DNA from: Acidobacteriota bacterium
GTDB taxonomy: Bacteria; Acidobacteriota; Aminicenantia; Aminicenantales; Saccharicenantaceae
Length of the DNA: 43,192 nt
NCBI GenBank assembly: GCA_014894455.1
Contig: JADBLN010000102.1
Coordinates: 5,345 to 48,536 of the forward strand
Direction of reading: 5' to 3'
Part shown: positions 86 to 8,574 of the stretch, in pieces
Layout of the letters: each line of letters starts with the position of its first letter
Position numbering within the stretch: the first letter of the stretch is position 1
Program-made: the position numbers and the translations under genes
The notes under the pieces: model-generated
Seen by the model: only the letters and a program-made list of their open reading frames with translations
Told to the model about the DNA's origin: nothing
Databases searched by the model: none

Positions 86-943
86 TTACACTTTAAGATC
101 CGGCGCCTGGTCCTTCTTTCTGATTTGCTCGATGATTTCCTCGAGGACGGCGATGATTTCCTGTTTCGAAACCGTCTGTTTCTTGAATTCGAGCCTCAGC
201 CGGAACCTGTCGTTGTCGTCGGGGACGAAATTATAGACGTAATACTTGGTTTTTTTGGTCTTCCCCTTGAGATACTTGGCCAAATCGCGCGTATCCTCGC
301 GCGTCAGGCGCCGATCGACGATCTCCCGGGCCAGCTTGAGCATGTCCTCTTCCGATTTCTGCTTGGCGATCTCGATGATGGTCGACCGGCTGAAGACCCC
401 GGTCTCCCGGATGATGTCCCGGACATTCTTGGGGATCTTGGCTATGCACAGGATCTCGGTTATCGTCGACCGGGCTTTGCCGATCTTTTCCGAGATCTGC
501 TGATGGTGATAATGATGGAAGTCTGCCAGAGCTTGAAGCCCGTCGGCCTCCTCGAAAATGTCGAGGTCTTTGCGCTGGAGGTTCTCGATCAGGGCGATCT
601 CCATGGCCTCGTTGTCCTCGACGTCCATTTCGATGCAGGGCAAATCCTTGAAGCCGATGTTCTTGGAAGCTATGAAGCGGCGCTCGCCGGCGATGATCTC
701 GAACCGGCTGCCCTTGGCCCGGACTAGGATGGGCTCCAGGATGCCCTTGCTCTTGATCGAGTCCTGGAGCTCCCCGATATTGCCGAGTTCACATCGGGCC
801 TGATGGGGATTCGGGTCGATTTTCTCGAGAGGGATCATCCGGATCCTCGGCCCAAGAGATCTCGCGGAGATCAGGTCGACGAAATGCCCATCGTGTTTCA
901 TTCCAATCGTTTCGGGCAGGCCGGATCTTTTAGTTTTTTGCAC
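86..943 (-). CDS. parB: ParB-family chromosome partitioning protein
   Basis: Predicted DNA-binding partner of ParA (285 residues) that would load on parS-type sites and help segregate the chromosome or replicon. The N-terminal ParB/Srx-like CTPase region carries the expected signatures: IDPNPHQAR, then GSRFEIIAGERR (the GERR box) and ALIENLQRKDL (the ENxQR box). A helix-turn-helix follows around residues 145-175 (QQISEKIGKARSTITE). The C-terminal 80 residues are Lys/Arg-rich and may dimerise; they resemble no domain I can name. The ATG lies inside the end of parA, an overlap of 14 bases, so the two are probably translationally coupled and share the parA promoter. Length is typical of the family. 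No clear consensus parS (GTTTCACGTGAAAC-like) site is visible in the window, so chromosome versus plasmid origin cannot be decided from sequence alone. Confidence 0.93.
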   Translation of the reverse strand: MQKTKRSGLPETIGMKHDGHFVDLISARSLGPRIRMIPLEKIDPNPHQARCELGNIGELQDSIKSKGILEPILVRAKGSRFEIIAGERRFIASKNIGFKDLPCIEMDVEDNEAMEIALIENLQRKDLDIFEEADGLQALADFHHYHHQQISEKIGKARSTITEILCIAKIPKNVRDIIRETGVFSRSTIIEIAKQKSEEDMLKLAREIVDRRLTREDTRDLAKYLKGKTKKTKYYVYNFVPDDNDRFRLRLEFKKQTVSKQEIIAVLEEIIEQIRKKDQAPDLKV

Positions 944-1694
944 GATGCATTATCTCCTCGGCGACTTTCTGATATTGCTCCGCCCCGATGGAATTTGGCG
1001 CATAGGTGAATATCGATTCTTTGTAGGCCGGACTTTCCTCGAGCTTGACGCTCTTCGAAATGAAGGTCTTGAAAACCTTGGCGCCGAAGACTTTCCTTAT
1101 CCTCTCGACGACGTCCCGGGCCAGGTTCGTCCGCTTGTCGAAAAGGGTGATCAACACGCCCAGGACCTTGAGGTTGGGGTTGGCGATCCGCTTGACTTTC
1201 TCGATCGTCTCGAGCAGGTCGTCCGTCCCCTCCAGACAGAGATAAGAGGACTGGATGGGTATGAGAATGTAGTTCGCCGCGACCAGGGCGTTCAAAGTGA
1301 TCAGGCCTAGCGTGGGAGGAGTGTCGATGAAAATGTACTGGTACTTGCCCCGGATCTGTTCCAGCGCATCCTTGAGGCGGAAATGGCCGTCGAATTCGCC
1401 GGCCAGCGACGGCTCGAGCTTGGCCATGGAGATCTTGGTGATGGACATGTCCAGACCGGGGATGTTCGATCGGACGATGATGTCCTCGAGCCTCTCGGTC
1501 TTGGTCATCAGAACGTCATAGAGAGATTTTTCATATTTTTCGGGGTTAGTGACCGTCGAGATGGTGCTGTGGGCCTGCGGATCCATGTCCAGCAGAAGCA
1601 CTTTTTTCCCCATCAAGGCGATGGCTGATGCGACATTGACCGACGTGGTCGTTTTTCCGACCCCGCCCTTCTGATTCGTTATCGCTATGATCAA
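930..1694 (-). CDS. parA: ParA/Soj-family partitioning ATPase
   Basis: Walker-type ATPase (254 residues from the chosen start) that works with ParB in DNA segregation. The deviant Walker A motif NQKGGVGKTTT lies within the first 20 residues, DMDPQAHST follows at about residue 40, and the Walker B-like FIDTPPTLG is present. I chose the TTG at 1694 because it gives the usual Soj start (LIIAITNQKGG) and is preceded by a strong ribosome-binding site, GGAGGGAG, with about 8 bases of spacing; an upstream ATG would add 24 unconserved residues. A sigma70-type promoter (TTGCTT, 17 bases, TATAAA) lies 43 bases upstream. The gene is first in a parA-parB pair. The TTG start may keep expression low. Confidence 0.94.
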   Translation of the reverse strand: MIIAITNQKGGVGKTTTSVNVASAIALMGKKVLLLDMDPQAHSTISTVTNPEKYEKSLYDVLMTKTERLEDIIVRSNIPGLDMSITKISMAKLEPSLAGEFDGHFRLKDALEQIRGKYQYIFIDTPPTLGLITLNALVAANYILIPIQSSYLCLEGTDDLLETIEKVKRIANPNLKVLGVLITLFDKRTNLARDVVERIRKVFGAKVFKTFISKSVKLEESPAYKESIFTYAPNSIGAEQYQKVAEEIMHRAKN

Positions 1695-1737
1695 GAGGCT
1701 TCTCTCCCTCCAAGGACGTATGCCCGAATAAGAATAT

Positions 1738-1766
1738 TTTATAGTCCTCGGGAGGATAAAAAGCAA
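1738..1766 (-). promoter_or_regulatory. Predicted parAB promoter
   Basis: On the minus strand the -35 box TTGCTT (1766-1761) and the -10 box TATAAA (1743-1738) are separated by 17 bases and point at parA. The -10 box is overlapped by one arm of a perfect 10-base inverted repeat, TTTATAGTCC (1738-1747) and GGACTATAAA (1813-1822), which could be an autoregulatory site. Confidence 0.6.
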
Positions 1767-2246: not shown

Positions 2247-2258
2247 ATGGGAATCGCG

Positions 2259-3710
2259 ATGACCATGCCTGCTGAAGACGAATCGAAACCCGAGTTTCTC
2301 AGGCGGCTCGGCCTGCTGGACACATCCTTTCTCGTCATCGGCGCCGTAGTCGGCTCGGGGATCTTCATGACGCCCGGGCTCATCGCCGCCGGCCTCCCCT
2401 CCCCCGGGCTCCTCCTGACGGTCTGGCTGGCCGGAGGCCTGGTCACCCTTTGCGGGGCCCTTTCCTTCGCTGAACTCGGGGCCATGTACCCGCAGTCCGG
2501 CGGTCAGTACGTTTACCTCCGGGAGGCCTACGGTCCGGCGGCGGCCTTTTTGTTCGGCTGGGCTTTTTTCGGTTTCATCATGTGCGGCGGGCTGGCGGCC
2601 TTGGCCGTGGCCTTCGCCGAGTTCCTCGGGTCCTTCGTCCCCGCTCTATCGACGGGACACCTCCTTTTCCGGGTCGAAGCGGCCGGGCTTTCCTACAGCC
2701 TGTCGGCTGGGCAGATCGTCGCCGCCGCTTCGATCTTGGCCCTGACCTTCCTCAATACCTTCGGCATTCGTTCCAGCGCCGCCGTCCAGAACCTCCTGAC
2801 CGTTTTCCGCCTCGGCACGGTCGCCGCGCTCGTCGGCCTGGGCGTTATCTTCGGCGCCAAGATGGGCGGCGCTAATTTCCATCCTCTGTTTCCTCCCGGG
2901 CCGGCCTTCCCCGCCGTCCTCAAGCCCCTCGGCCTGGCCCTCGTGGCCGTATTTTGGACGTACGACGGCTGGTACGCCGTCAACTGCACGGCCGAGGAGA
3001 TCCGGGACCCGGAGCGGACGATCCCCCGCGGCTTGACCATGGGAGTCTTGGCCGTGACCGCCATCTATGTCCTGGTCAACCTCGTCTACCTGATGGCCCT
3101 GCCCCTCGAAAAGATCAGCGGGGTCGTCCGCGTCGGCGAGCTGGCCGCCGCGGCACTTTTCGGCGGCGGCGGAGCCGCCTTGTTCTCAGCCCTGGTCATG
3201 GTCTCGGTGTTCGGATGCCTGAATGCCAACATTCTTTTCGGCCCCCGCGTTTTTTACGCCATGGCCAAGGATGGGCACTTTTTCCGGGCCATGGGCCGAC
3301 TCGGCGCGCGCAGCCGGGTCCCGACCGGAGCGTTGTGGAGCCAGGCGGCCTGGTCGGCCGTCCTCTGCCTGTCGGGGACCTACGAATCGCTCTACGAGTA
3401 CATGGTTTTCGCCCTCCTCCTCTTTTTCGCGGCGACGGGGCTGGCCGTCTTCGTTCTCCGGCACAAGCGCCCGGGGACGCCCCGCCCTTACCGGACCTGG
3501 GGATATCCCGCCGTTCCCCTGGTTTTCATCGTCATGTGCCTGGCGGTATTTTCGAGCATCGTCATCTCCCAGCCTCTCAAGTCCGCGGCCGGGGCCGGAC
3601 TTCTCCTGGCGGGCTTCCCCGTCTACCTGGTCTGGAAGAGCCGCGGCGGCCGCAACCCGGCCGGGACGATAAATAAAGATTCCCCGGACACCGAATTTCG
3701 TTTAAGATGA
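2259..3710 (+). CDS. APC-superfamily amino acid/amine permease
   Basis: Inner-membrane secondary transporter of the amino acid-polyamine-organocation type, about 483 residues with roughly 12 hydrophobic segments. The first transmembrane helix carries the unwound substrate-site motif GSGIF (VIGAVVGSGIFMTPG), followed by the conserved FAELGAMYPQSGGQYVYLREAYG stretch after helix 2, which is diagnostic of the family. The substrate cannot be read from sequence. It sits 25 bases upstream of a corrinoid methyl-transfer operon on the same strand, so it may import the methylated substrate (for example a betaine) or methionine; this is inference. The start is uncertain: TTG 2217 and ATG 2247 are also in frame; I prefer ATG 2259 because GGGA lies 6 bases upstream and the cytosolic N-terminus is then of normal length. 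Confidence 0.88.
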   Translation: MTMPAEDESKPEFLRRLGLLDTSFLVIGAVVGSGIFMTPGLIAAGLPSPGLLLTVWLAGGLVTLCGALSFAELGAMYPQSGGQYVYLREAYGPAAAFLFGWAFFGFIMCGGLAALAVAFAEFLGSFVPALSTGHLLFRVEAAGLSYSLSAGQIVAAASILALTFLNTFGIRSSAAVQNLLTVFRLGTVAALVGLGVIFGAKMGGANFHPLFPPGPAFPAVLKPLGLALVAVFWTYDGWYAVNCTAEEIRDPERTIPRGLTMGVLAVTAIYVLVNLVYLMALPLEKISGVVRVGELAAAALFGGGGAALFSALVMVSVFGCLNANILFGPRVFYAMAKDGHFFRAMGRLGARSRVPTGALWSQAAWSAVLCLSGTYESLYEYMVFALLLFFAATGLAVFVLRHKRPGTPRPYRTWGYPAVPLVFIVMCLAVFSSIVISQPLKSAAGAGLLLAGFPVYLVWKSRGGRNPAGTINKDSPDTEFRLR

Positions 3711-3735: not shown

Positions 3736-5517
3736 ATGACCGACACATCCTTCATCGTCCAGATCCTTCCCGACGGGACCAAGGTCCGGGCCCGGGCCGG
3801 CGAGGTCCTGTCCGACGTCCTCGCTCGGGCTGGGATCCCGCTCAGTCTCTACTGCCATAAGCGGGGGATCTGCGGCAAGTGCGCCGTCCGCATCCTCAAC
3901 GGTCTCCTGCCCTTCCCCGCCGCGCTCGAGGCGTCCCTTCTCGAGAACCGTCGGCTCGGCCCCGACCATCGGCTGGCCTGCCGCTATGAAGTCCGCAGCG
4001 ACCTCACCGTGGAAACGCTCCCGGGGTCGCGCCTCGAAAAGATCGCCGTCCTCGACACGGGAGTCCCCTCGGCGGTCTTCATCGACCCGGCCGTGAAGAA
4101 GCTTTCTCTCGTCCTGGAGAAGCCGTCCCTGTACTCACCGACGGCGGTGGCGGACTCCCTCCGGGCGCACCTGAAGTCGCCCGGGCTCGGCCTTCCCCTG
4201 GCGGTCCTGTCGAAGCTCGGCGGCCCGATCCTCGCCGGGGGACGGCCGGCGACCGCCGTCCTCTACGACGACCGTGAGATCCTCGACATAGAACCGGACG
4301 ATACCGGGAGCGAGGCCTACGGCCTGGCGGTCGACCTGGGCACGAGCACGGTCGTCGCCGAGCTCGTCGACCTGAGGACCGGGAAGGTCGTCGAGCGGGC
4401 CGCCGCGGTCAACGCCCAGAATTCCTACGGCGCGGACGTCGTCTCTCGGATCACTTTCGCCTTCGAGAACCCCGATAACCTCCAGCGCCTGAAAAACGCC
4501 GCCGTCCAGCTCATCAACGACCTCGTCGCAGGCATGTCCAGGCGGAGCGGGGTCCCCCGTCACCGCATCTACGACGCGGTCATCGCCGGGAACACGGTCA
4601 TGAACCACATCCTCTGCGGCGTCACCGTCGACACGCTCGCCCTCGCCCCCTTCCACGCCGTGTTCTCGAGCCTGCCGCCGCTTCCCGCTTCCGACGTCGG
4701 GTTCGCCCTCCATCCCCAGGCCCGGGTCTACATCGTGCCCAACATCAAGAGCTTCGTCGGCGGGGACATCACGGCCGGGCTCGTCGCCTCGGAGTTCGCC
4801 GGGGAGGCCGCGAACGAGCTCTACATCGACCTCGGGACCAACGGCGAGATCGTCCTCAAAAAGGGCCGCGAATTCGTGACCACGTCGACGGCCGCCGGCC
4901 CGGCCTTCGAAGGCATGAACGTCAGCTGCGGCATGCTGGCGGTCGCCGGGGCCATCCACCGGGCCGAATGGGACGACGGCTTCAAGTTCCGCACGATCGA
5001 CGACCTCCCTCCCCAGGGCGTCTGCGGGACCGGCCTCATCGACATCCTGGCCCTGTCCCTGGCCCGGGGCCTCCTCGGCCGCGACGGCCGGATCGCCGGA
5101 CCGGAAAAGAAGATCCGGCTGACCGACCGGCTTTCCCTGACCCAGCAGGATGTCCGGAACGTCCAGTTGGCCGTGGCCGCGGTCAGGAGCGGGGTGGGGC
5201 TGATGCTCCGGGAGTTCCGGGTTCCGATGGCCCGGCTCGACCGGATCCTCGTCGCCGGGGCTTTCGGCAGTTCCCTGGACATCGGGAACGCCCAGGACCT
5301 GGGGCTTCTGCCGGACGTCCCCGAGAGCAAGGTCGCGTTCATCGGCAACGCGTCATTGGCCGGGGCCCGGAAGTTGCTCCTGTCCCGGCCTGATCGGACG
5401 GGCGCGGAAACCCTGGCCGCCAAGATCGCCCACGTCTCCCTGGCTACCCGTCCGGATTTTCAGGACGAGTTCGTCAAAGCCCTCGAATTCAAGCGGTATT
5501 CGGGAGGGGAAAAATGA
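3736..5517 (+). CDS. RACo-type reductive activator of corrinoid proteins (ASKHA ATPase with 2Fe-2S domain)
   Basis: Reactivates corrinoid proteins whose cobalt has been oxidised to Co(II), using ATP and a low-potential electron. The N-terminal ferredoxin-like domain shows four cysteines spaced as in 2Fe-2S proteins: C40, C46, C49 and C82 (CHKRGICGKC, then LAC). The C-terminal half is an ASKHA nucleotide-binding fold (DUF4445 family): phosphate loops DLGTSTV near residue 200 and DLGTNGE near 365, GVCGTGLID near 430, and VAGAFGSSLDIGNAQ near 510. The 593-residue length fits RACo/RamA-like proteins, although RamA itself uses 4Fe-4S centres. Its stop overlaps the start of the homocysteine methyltransferase (ATGA), placing it in one operon with a corrinoid protein, its obvious client. 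Confidence 0.9.
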   Translation: MTDTSFIVQILPDGTKVRARAGEVLSDVLARAGIPLSLYCHKRGICGKCAVRILNGLLPFPAALEASLLENRRLGPDHRLACRYEVRSDLTVETLPGSRLEKIAVLDTGVPSAVFIDPAVKKLSLVLEKPSLYSPTAVADSLRAHLKSPGLGLPLAVLSKLGGPILAGGRPATAVLYDDREILDIEPDDTGSEAYGLAVDLGTSTVVAELVDLRTGKVVERAAAVNAQNSYGADVVSRITFAFENPDNLQRLKNAAVQLINDLVAGMSRRSGVPRHRIYDAVIAGNTVMNHILCGVTVDTLALAPFHAVFSSLPPLPASDVGFALHPQARVYIVPNIKSFVGGDITAGLVASEFAGEAANELYIDLGTNGEIVLKKGREFVTTSTAAGPAFEGMNVSCGMLAVAGAIHRAEWDDGFKFRTIDDLPPQGVCGTGLIDILALSLARGLLGRDGRIAGPEKKIRLTDRLSLTQQDVRNVQLAVAAVRSGVGLMLREFRVPMARLDRILVAGAFGSSLDIGNAQDLGLLPDVPESKVAFIGNASLAGARKLLLSRPDRTGAETLAAKIAHVSLATRPDFQDEFVKALEFKRYSGGEK

Positions 5518-6404
5518 CCTTGCCTCTGCTCGACCTCGTCAGGATACGGACGGTCCTCCTCGATGGCGCCATGGGAACCGAACTCATGGCCCGGGGACTC
5601 CCCCAGGGGACGGCTCCGGAAGCCTGGAATGTCGAACGGCCCGGTCTCGTCAAGGAGATCCACGGCGAATACTTCGCGGCCGGAGCGGATGTCGTCTCGA
5701 CCAACAGCTTCGGAGGAAACGCTCTCAAATTAGCCGGCCATGGCCTCGGGGGCCGGACCTATGAGCTGAACCTGGCGGCGGCCCGCCTGGCCCGGGAAAT
5801 CGCCCCCGCTGGACGCTACGTGGCCGGAAGCATGGGCCCCACGGGAAAGTTTCTGAAACCCCAGGGGGAATTCACCGAGGAGGACTTCGCCGCCGCTTAC
5901 GCCGAACAGGCCCGCGGCCTCGCCGACGGCGGGGCGGATGTCCTGCTTGTCGAGACCCAATACGACCTGCGCGAAGCTCTCGCGGCAGTCCGCGGCGTGC
6001 GAAGCGTTTCTTCGCTTCCCGTCTTCGTCACGATGACATTCAACGCGTTCCCCCGGGGCTATTTCACCCTCATGGGAGACACCGTCGTCAAGTCGGCCGC
6101 GGAGCTCGAGAAGGAAGGCGTCGGGGCCGTGGGGGCCAACTGCACGCTGAACAGCGAACAGATGGTCGGCTGCGTCCGGGCCCTCAGGGCGTCGACGGAC
6201 TTGCCCATCATCGCCCAGGCCAACGCCGGCCAGCCGGTCATCGGCCAGGACGGCCGCGTCGGCTATTCCCAGGGCCTCGAGGACTACGTGCGGTTCGTCC
6301 CCGAGATCGTCCGAGCCGGCGCCGGCTTGGTCGGAGGCTGCTGCGGGACGAACCCCGCGTTCATCCGGGCCATGGCCCGAATAATCAAAAAGGAGCGGTC
6401 ATGA
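5514..6404 (+). CDS. Homocysteine S-methyltransferase (MetH N-terminal module, stand-alone)
   Basis: Zn-dependent methyltransferase, 296 residues, equivalent to the homocysteine-binding module of cobalamin-dependent methionine synthase. The barrel opens with LLDGAMGTELMARG; the three zinc cysteines are C210 (GANC) and C276-C277 (GGCCGT), as in MetH. No folate, B12 or activation domain follows; the B12 domain is the next gene. The ATG overlaps the RACo stop and is preceded by the strong site GGGAGGGG. In context it should move a methyl group between homocysteine and the neighbouring methyl-corrinoid protein, most simply making methionine. A different thiol acceptor cannot be excluded. Confidence 0.9.
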   Translation: MTLPLLDLVRIRTVLLDGAMGTELMARGLPQGTAPEAWNVERPGLVKEIHGEYFAAGADVVSTNSFGGNALKLAGHGLGGRTYELNLAAARLAREIAPAGRYVAGSMGPTGKFLKPQGEFTEEDFAAAYAEQARGLADGGADVLLVETQYDLREALAAVRGVRSVSSLPVFVTMTFNAFPRGYFTLMGDTVVKSAAELEKEGVGAVGANCTLNSEQMVGCVRALRASTDLPIIAQANAGQPVIGQDGRVGYSQGLEDYVRFVPEIVRAGAGLVGGCCGTNPAFIRAMARIIKKERS

Positions 6405-7054
6405 ACAAAGACGAGCTTTTGCGGAGCATGAACGAAGCGATCGTCGCCGGCAACAAGGCGGCGGCCGCGGCCCTCGGGGCGGAAGCCGTCCGGTCCGGGG
6501 CGGACCTTCTCGAGGTCATCGAGAAAGGATACGTCCCGGGCCTCCAGAAGGTCGGAGAGCTCTGGGAACAGGGGGAGTATTTCCTGCCCGAGCTCATCTC
6601 GAGCGCCGAGGCCATGAAAGCGGCCATGGCCGTCCTCAAGCCGGAGCTCGACCGGAAGAATATCGAGGCCCAGCGGGGCGGAAAAGTGGTCATCGGGACG
6701 GTCGAGGGCGACATCCACGACATCGGGAAGAACCTGGTCGCTTCGATGCTCCAGGCGGGCGGCTTTGAGGTCTATGACCTCGGGGCCGACGTCAAGCTCG
6801 AGCGGTTCATCGAAAAAGCCGAAGCGGTGGGCGCGGGGATCATCTGCCTGTCCGCCCTGCTGACGACGACGATGACCAACCAAAAGCGGCTCATCGGGCT
6901 TCTCCGCGAAAAGGGCCTCCGCGACAAGTACAAGGTCCTCGTCGGCGGCGCGCCTGCCAGCCACAAGTGGGCCGATGAAATCGGAGCGGACGGCTACGCC
7001 GAAAACGCAGTCGCCGCGGTCAAGCTGGTCCGAACCATGTCCGGCGGGGACTGA
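6401..7054 (+). CDS. Corrinoid (B12-binding) methyltransferase protein, MtbC/MttC family
   Basis: Carries the cobamide that shuttles the methyl group between MttB and the acceptor enzyme. Of its 217 residues, the first 85 form the helical cap domain and the rest a Rossmann-like B12 domain with the lower-ligand motif D104-x-H106-x-x-G109 (GDIHDIGKN), where H106 coordinates cobalt. The conserved SALLTTTM segment near 155 and VGGAPAS near 190 also match the family. It overlaps the upstream gene by four bases (ATGA) and is preceded by AAGGAG. It is the hub of the operon: RACo repairs it, MttB methylates it and the homocysteine enzyme unloads it. Confidence 0.94.
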   Translation: MNKDELLRSMNEAIVAGNKAAAAALGAEAVRSGADLLEVIEKGYVPGLQKVGELWEQGEYFLPELISSAEAMKAAMAVLKPELDRKNIEAQRGGKVVIGTVEGDIHDIGKNLVASMLQAGGFEVYDLGADVKLERFIEKAEAVGAGIICLSALLTTTMTNQKRLIGLLREKGLRDKYKVLVGGAPASHKWADEIGADGYAENAVAAVKLVRTMSGGD

Positions 7055-7104
7055 GACGGGGCCGGGCGAACAAGCTTGGAAAAAAAGAGAGAGAGAGGTT
7101 GGAG

Positions 7105-8574
7105 ATGATCGAAACAAAAAGGCCGAAAATGGAACTCCTGAGCGGGACGTTCGTCGAAATGCTCGTGGACGAGGGGCTGACGCTCCTCGAAACGCAGGGG
7201 ATCATGGTCGAGAACGCCGAGGCGCTTCGACTTCTCGGCGACGCCGGGGCCGTCGTCGACCTGGCCGCCCAGAGGGCCCGGCTCGGACGGCGGATGGTCG
7301 AGGGATGTTTGGCTTCCACGCCGTCTTCCATCACCCTCTTTGACCGGAGCGGCGAGAAGGCGTTTGCCGTCGGCGGTGACGAAGTCCATTTCGACCCCGG
7401 CTCCGCAGCCGTGACCCTCCTAGATCACGACACGCAGGAGGAACGCAAGGCCATGACCGCCGACCTCGTGGACTTCTACAAGCTCGTCGAAACCCTGGAG
7501 CATATCCATTTTCAGAGCACGGGCCTCATCTCCTCCGACGTCCCGGCCGCGGTCTCCGACGGCTACCGCCTTTACCTCGGACTGTGTCTTTCGTCCAAGC
7601 CGTTCGTCACCGGGACCTTCCGCGTGGAGGGTTTCCGGCCGATGAAGGACTTCCTCGTCGCCGTCCGCGGCGGCGAGCGCGAGCTTCGCCTCAAACCGCT
7701 GGCCATTTTCGACGCCTGCCCCTCCCCTCCCCTCAAGTGGAGCAACCTGACCGCCCAGAGCCTGCTCGACGCCGCCCGGGCAGGGATCCCTTCCGAGCTC
7801 ATCTCCATGGGCTTGACGGGAGCGACATCGCCGGTCACGATCGCCGGGACGCTCGTCCAGCACGTGGCCGAGAACCTCTCCGGCCTGACCATCTGCCAGG
7901 TCGCCGCCAAGGGCGCGCCGGTCATCTTCGGCGGCTCCCCGGCGAGCTTTGATATGAGGAAGGGGACGACCCCCATGGGCGCCGTCGAGACGATGATGAT
8001 CGATTCGGCCTACGCTCAGATCGGCAAGTTCCTGAAATTGCCCACCCATGCCTACATGGGGCTGAGCGACGCCAAGGTCAACGACCCCCAGGCGGGGTTC
8101 GAAACGGCCATGGGGGCCGTCTTGGGGGCCCTTTCCGGGATCAACGTCATCTCCGGTCCGGGGATGTTGGACTTCGAGAGCTCGCAAAGCCTCGAAAAAC
8201 TCGTCATCGACGACGGCATCTGCGCCATGGTCTACCGCCTCTTGGCCGGCATCGCCCAGCGGGACGACCCCATCGCCCTGGGCCTTTTCGAGGCGTTCGC
8301 TCCTGACATGCAGTTCCTCTCCCTTCCCCACACCCGCCAATGGTACAGGAAGGAGCACATCCTGGCCGGCCTCGTCGACCGCGACCCCTACGAAGCCTGG
8401 GTGACGGCGGGCCGGACGTCCATCGTCGACAAGGCCCATGCCGACGTCCGTCGGCGGCTCGGGAAGTACGAAGCTTCTCCGCTAGCCGATCCTGTCCGCA
8501 AGGAGATGGACAAGATCATGGCCGCCTATGCCCGGTCCCAAGGTGTCGACCGGCTGCCGGTGTCGGACTTCTAG
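7105..8574 (+). CDS. MttB-family methyltransferase (non-pyrrolysine type)
   Basis: Member of the trimethylamine methyltransferase superfamily, 489 residues, predicted to transfer a methyl group from a quaternary or tertiary amine to the corrinoid protein encoded just upstream. Family features include SMGLTGATSPVTIAGTLVQH in the middle of the barrel, IFGGSPASFDMRKG, and SGPGMLDFESSQSLEKLV towards the C-terminus. The reading frame has no internal amber codon; at the region where archaeal MttB has pyrrolysine this protein reads GLSDAKVNDPQAGFE. Known proteins of this kind (MtgB, MtpB, MtcB) demethylate glycine betaine, proline betaine or carnitine, but the substrate here cannot be assigned. I chose ATG 7105 (GAGAGAGG 6 bases upstream) over TTG 7099. 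Last gene of the operon. Confidence 0.92.
   Translation: MIETKRPKMELLSGTFVEMLVDEGLTLLETQGIMVENAEALRLLGDAGAVVDLAAQRARLGRRMVEGCLASTPSSITLFDRSGEKAFAVGGDEVHFDPGSAAVTLLDHDTQEERKAMTADLVDFYKLVETLEHIHFQSTGLISSDVPAAVSDGYRLYLGLCLSSKPFVTGTFRVEGFRPMKDFLVAVRGGERELRLKPLAIFDACPSPPLKWSNLTAQSLLDAARAGIPSELISMGLTGATSPVTIAGTLVQHVAENLSGLTICQVAAKGAPVIFGGSPASFDMRKGTTPMGAVETMMIDSAYAQIGKFLKLPTHAYMGLSDAKVNDPQAGFETAMGAVLGALSGINVISGPGMLDFESSQSLEKLVIDDGICAMVYRLLAGIAQRDDPIALGLFEAFAPDMQFLSLPHTRQWYRKEHILAGLVDRDPYEAWVTAGRTSIVDKAHADVRRRLGKYEASPLADPVRKEMDKIMAAYARSQGVDRLPVSDF

Follow-up and report, generated by a model that had tools for sequence, protein, structure and literature searches.

A probable two-input variant of the split methionine synthase encoded by a Candidatus Aminicenantes operon

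The classical methionine synthase, MetH, is a single polypeptide composed of homocysteine S-methyltransferase (HMT), pterin and B12 domains, and usually also of a SAM-binding reactivation domain. Systems in which such functions are carried by separate proteins have been described. In P. inhibens, the methionine synthase consists of three parts and is reactivated in a RamA-like manner (PMC5764234), and genetic studies on R. pomeroyi demonstrated that the corrinoid protein MtgC and the pterin enzyme MtgD serve both methionine synthesis and demethylation of glycine betaine, together with the MttB-type protein MtgB (PMC12478193). MtgABC of Desulfitobacterium hafniense and MtqABC of Eubacterium limosum are quaternary amine:folate methyltransferases (PMC12155760, PMC7154762), and MesA-D are folate-independent core methionine synthases of the MetE type, PF01717 (PMC7857596). 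We found no description of the Aminicenantes operon considered here in the open-access literature searched.

The window, by which we mean the whole analysed stretch of 43,192 nucleotides, comes from the genome of an uncultured Candidatus Aminicenantes bacterium (G000; 96% complete, 125 contigs) and bears five genes arranged in one tight operon on the forward strand. Its first gene is probably that of an APC-superfamily amino acid permease (2253..3710; PF13520, 210 bits), which ends 25 bases before the gene of a RACo-type ATP-dependent reductive activator of corrinoid protein (3736..5517; Fer2, RACo_linker, Raco_middle and RACo_C_ter domains, the last scoring 226 bits). These are followed by genes encoding a MetH-like HMT (5514..6404; PF02574, 234 bits), a separate corrinoid (B12) protein with a cap domain (6401..7054; PF02310, B12-binding, and PF02607, B12-binding_2), and a non-pyrrolysine methyltransferase of the MttB superfamily (7099..8574 with TTG 7099 as the start codon, or from ATG 7105; PF06253, 289.5 bits). 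All five families were matched well above the curated Pfam cut-offs, so the profile search bore out the families and positions which a sequence-only reading had assigned. That reading had also placed neighbouring core genes within 51 bases of each other or overlapping; indeed, the RACo and HMT genes overlap by 4 bp, as do the HMT and corrinoid genes, and the corrinoid-MttB gap amounts to 50 bases with ATG 7105 or 44 with TTG 7099.

Conservation of the gene neighbourhood in relatives, named previously as a check, was found as well: the RACo-HMT-corrinoid-MttB order is kept in every locus of the same genus or family examined, barring cuts at contig ends, which indicates that the arrangement is not due to chance. 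Other loci of the genus, and several further families, likewise have an APC gene 5' of the RACo gene, even where the homocysteine gene sits elsewhere (L088, L098, L123, L092), and the permease might be considered a candidate importer of the MttB substrate. The parAB genes are located 5' of the operon (window positions 86-1766), and in relatives they are kept beside APC-RACo or beside the homocysteine gene. The Rfam scan of the window gave no riboswitch above threshold.

Compared with classical MetH, the homocysteine, pterin and B12 modules are homologous and presumably perform the same chemistry, but they are encoded by separate genes, RACo stands for the C-terminal SAM domain, and MttB is added. 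The best PDB matches of the window HMT are MetH chains 8g3h and 1q7m (E 1e-41), while similarity to BHMT is far weaker (E 1e-15). Alignment to MetH 1q7m indicated that the zinc and homocysteine residues are intact, and zinc-binding Cys210, Cys276 and Cys277, as well as Glu147 and Asp17, are invariant across 21 HMT homologs; thus, the loss of homocysteine-binding residues, to which the earlier proposal had been declared vulnerable, was not seen. The corrinoid protein scores 236 bits to TIGR02370 (cut-off 215.3), has the DxHxxG, SxL and GG motifs, and aligns to MttC 7xcn (E 7e-56) and also to MetH 1bmt. The nearest PDB chain to the window activator is RACo itself (3zyy, E 3e-96); its proposed role in place of the SAM-dependent reactivation domain agrees with the profile search of G000, in which that domain (Met_synt_B12, PF02965) was not found.

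In the window MttB, the pyrrolysine position is occupied by Leu322, with no in-frame stop (alignment to MttB 7xcl and MtgB 2qne). A PYLIS_3 match found by Rfam at 8062-8161 is below threshold and begins at the Leu322 codon; as the frame is open, we rejected it as a true element and take it to reflect the homology of mttB coding sequences. PYLIS_3 was also matched, above threshold, inside non-pyrrolysine mttB genes of three relatives (L184, L172, L067). A quick FastTree tree, which did not include the D. hafniense MtgB and E. limosum sequences, placed the MttB proteins studied here in their own clade, apart from MttB of S. meliloti and Terrarubrum. This clade is marked by the signatures HAYM..SD[AS]K, PGSAA and SGPGMLDFES, and all 31 MttB rows compared agree at 21 positions whose residues are missing from the outgroup rows, though one of them, F491, is the terminal residue and hence uninformative. 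By score, the window protein is about equally close to M. barkeri MttB and D. hafniense MtgB, thus similarity does not assign a substrate to it.

The arrangement most similar to ours is MtgBCDE of Ruegeria and Phaeobacter. In both, the homocysteine, corrinoid, pterin and MttB functions reside on individual proteins, reactivation is of the RACo/RamA type, and the pterin enzyme is encoded at a distance from the other parts, next to a metF-like gene (in G000 on contig C37, 9299-10135, a divergent member). In S. meliloti pSymB and in Terrarubrum, the homocysteine gene likewise lies near or adjoins an MttB gene. What differs is the phylum, the gathering of the window parts in one tight operon, and the affiliation of these parts: in quick FastTree runs with some weak nodes (the Aminicenantes HMT node has a support of 0.476), the clade of the window HMT excludes, at low support, MtgE of S. 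meliloti and Terrarubrum, the MttB proteins of these two fall outside the window MttB clade, and S. meliloti MtgC groups with another corrinoid protein of G000, encoded on contig C12, instead of the window one. As HMT, MttB and the corrinoid protein thus lie outside the MtgBCDE clades, in part at weak support, the Aminicenantes operon is a variant rather than a member of MtgBCDE, probably one with two methyl inputs. As with MtgABC and MtqABC, the genome encodes a non-pyrrolysine MttB, a folate methyltransferase and a corrinoid protein, here in putative functional pairing; the system differs in having the homocysteine module in the operon and only one MttB gene, in that no CoFeSP was found in G000, and, with respect to MtgABC, in the MttB scores given above. 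MesA-D share the idea that a corrinoid protein donates the methyl group; in contrast to them, PF01717 was not found in G000, and neither MetE nor MesA-D was accepted as its methionine route.

A separate problem is the source of the methyl group. The sequence-only reading held that a folate methyltransferase of the MtgA or MtqA type was absent. There is none in the operon, yet the PF00809 search of G000 returned two matches: FolP on C79, and a protein on C37 whose nearest PDB family is that of methyl-tetrahydrofolate:corrinoid methyltransferases. Residues D75, N96, D160 and N198, the expected folate-site positions of the AcsE family, are invariant in C37-type proteins, and the C37 enzyme is divergent, a close homolog reaching 95 bits against an NCBIfam cut-off of 259 bits. 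In G000, a gap of 100 N in the assembly lies between its gene and the MetF-like gene; G002, G004 and G009 (L106, L108, L111) have both genes intact, with an 8 bp overlap. Of 13 genus genomes, 11, G000 among them, carry a full-length homolog, at 78-96% identity in the other 10, and the two lacking one are fragmented assemblies. Since C37 MtgD and the window HMT are 96% and 95% identical, respectively, to their G004 counterparts, a binning error of contig C37 is unlikely. In family f2, the MTHFR and pterin domains are fused in one protein; for example, a protein of about 860 amino acids in G016 (C112, 5427-8006; L118) consists of MTHFR, MTHFR C-terminal and pterin-binding domains, and similar long ORFs are present in other f2 genomes. 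The C37-type enzymes of G016 and G022 are 79-82% identical between families as compared with about 55% for the homocysteine module, which could point to lateral transfer or to strong constraint.

A folate methyltransferase specific for the window corrinoid protein was regarded earlier as the gene whose discovery elsewhere would speak against a folate-free synthase. A gene of this kind is present on C37, and its specificity for the window corrinoid protein is putative. As CoFeSP was not found and G000 encodes only two capped corrinoid proteins, the one from the window and the one on C12, either of these is a likely partner of the C37 enzyme. Acetogenesis was rejected as the role of this enzyme on the same CoFeSP result. 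The C12 protein (C12 1-1118, L010), which groups nearer S. meliloti MtgC in a quick tree, is encoded beside an N-terminal fragment at the contig start; the fragment has no Pfam match, and its UroD-like label is our own reading.

The explanation towards which we lean is a split methionine synthase in which one corrinoid protein is methylated both from methyl-folate and, through MttB, from an amine. RACo would reduce the corrinoid cobalt to Co(I), and the Co(I) protein would be methylated either from methyl-tetrahydrofolate, by the separate MtgA/MtgD-type enzyme encoded elsewhere with the MetF-like gene, or by MttB from an amine, probably a quaternary one. The homocysteine module would then pass the methyl group to homocysteine to give methionine. 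The window corrinoid protein is thereby predicted to serve MttB, the homocysteine module and the folate partner alike, and the methyl group to flow toward methionine. At the level of sequence, the scheme stands on the parts, their conservation and catalytic residues, on a folate partner that is present, and on MetE, Met_synt_B12 and CoFeSP, which the profile searches did not find; the precedents cited above (PMC12478193, PMC5764234) also speak for it. The divergent C37 enzyme could, against it, serve the C12 corrinoid protein. From the earlier idea of direct methyl transfer from MttB to homocysteine without folate, the route itself survives, as both methyltransferases would use one corrinoid protein, whereas replacement of folate is unsupported given the folate partner in the genome. 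MttB is thus probably an extra methyl input.

The distribution of methionine synthases among relatives favours the two-input reading. As the suggested genome searches revealed, no ORF of G000 joins PF02574 with PF00809, and MetE (PF01717) is missing from the matches in 58 of 59 relatives as it is in G000. One further PF02574 match (C57 3441-3638, L013) covers the N-terminus only, the gene being cut by the contig end; its best match among the references used, at 77% identity, is a bifunctional HMT/MTHFR from G006, and a second homocysteine gene of this kind weighs against our reading. Relatives with fused MetH mostly lack MttB: among 60 genomes, 8 have fused MetH only, 44 MttB only, 2 both and 6 neither (Fisher p 4e-5, and p 0.005 within genus g4). 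These counts were tallied by hand from search tables, and the p values overstate independence, as the genomes are related and the pattern is concentrated in one genus, which also counts against the two-input reading. An MtgA-type match (standalone, fused or partial) accompanies MttB in 37 of the 44 relatives lacking MetH. The remaining 7, one of which has MetE and several of which are fragmented, show none and form a further argument to the contrary. In four genomes (G013, G017, G022, G023), a Met_synt_B12-like match lies just 3' of MttB, beside the RACo operon, suggesting two reactivation systems.

Synteny in sister families provides another link to folate. In G019, G021, G024 and G025, the homocysteine gene adjoins a different, MtgA-type folate methyltransferase gene, and the same pairing is seen at L155 and L171; in G019 the two genes overlap by 4 bp and lie beside a cysteine-desulfurase-like gene. 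The RACo-corrinoid-MttB genes fetched from G019, G021 and G024 sit away from the homocysteine gene. G013 and G033 have the MtgA-type gene at the same syntenic place (with the cysteine-desulfurase-like gene in G013 and other common neighbours in both), whereas their homocysteine gene is found in the RACo operon. This suggests that the homocysteine gene moved between operons. Clusters of corrinoid, HMT and MttB genes are not confined to Aminicenantes: we found them in Zixibacteria, Krumholzibacteria, Lokiarchaeia and a record of Heimdallarchaeota. Several of the non-Lokiarchaeal ones encode a protein of about 210 amino acids between HMT and MttB, and those tested, from Zixibacteria and Krumholzibacteria, match the MetH reactivation domain, which again supports the two-input reading. 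A selenocysteine tRNA is located near one corrinoid-HMT-MttB cluster (L172 4511-4604).

One may alternatively assume that MttB is the sole methyl source of a folate-free methionine synthase and that the C37 enzyme serves another corrinoid protein, for which the C12 protein would be available. We regard this as unlikely for Aminicenantes, despite the corrinoid-homocysteine-MttB linkage kept in Zixibacteria, Krumholzibacteria and Lokiarchaeia: the folate partner is conserved in the genus, the orthologous homocysteine module adjoins MtgA-type genes in sister families, and most relatives with MttB and without MetH have an MtgA-type match. In six Lokiarchaeal and several other genomes, the search for an MtgA-type protein gave nothing or weak matches of at most about 38 bits, and folate-free methionine synthesis is possible in these lineages; the Krumholzibacterial genomes do have such a protein. 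Less probable still is methyl catabolism, in which MttB and the corrinoid protein would strip methyl groups from an amine chiefly for the folate pool, as in Ruegeria grown on glycine betaine (PMC12478193); the homocysteine gene would be a passenger that happens to lie alongside and draws on their corrinoid protein. In favour of this, other families have RACo-corrinoid-MttB units, some of them together with APC, that lack a homocysteine gene nearby; nevertheless, G000 has a single MttB gene, it would have no corrinoid Wood-Ljungdahl outlet as CoFeSP was not found, and the link to the homocysteine module is conserved across phyla. Finally, a homocysteine enzyme acting alone with a small donor (betaine or S-methylmethionine), like BHMT or MmuM, has a precedent in P. 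inhibens Bmt, which does so in vitro (PMC12366255), but the window HMT is closer to MetH chains, its gene shares 4 bp with that of the corrinoid protein, and their co-location is conserved; such a role is very improbable, and a direct BHMT role was judged unlikely.

Under the two-input reading, the hub of methionine and methylated-amine metabolism, published in 2025 for marine Proteobacteria, would extend to Acidobacteriota and deep lineages including Asgard archaea, where it is apparently built from different subfamilies of each part. When the folate partner lies elsewhere, it can be wrong to annotate such a genome as devoid of methionine synthase or as independent of folate. The analysis also names a previously uncharacterised MttB subfamily tied to methionine synthesis. 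Tentatively, this subfamily with its invariant pocket signature, from Aminicenantes to Lokiarchaeia, might be a dedicated methyl-donating enzyme for methionine synthesis with one common substrate; if that is true, it would turn the corrinoid-homocysteine pair into a folate-free methionine synthase in lineages without MtgA-type enzymes.
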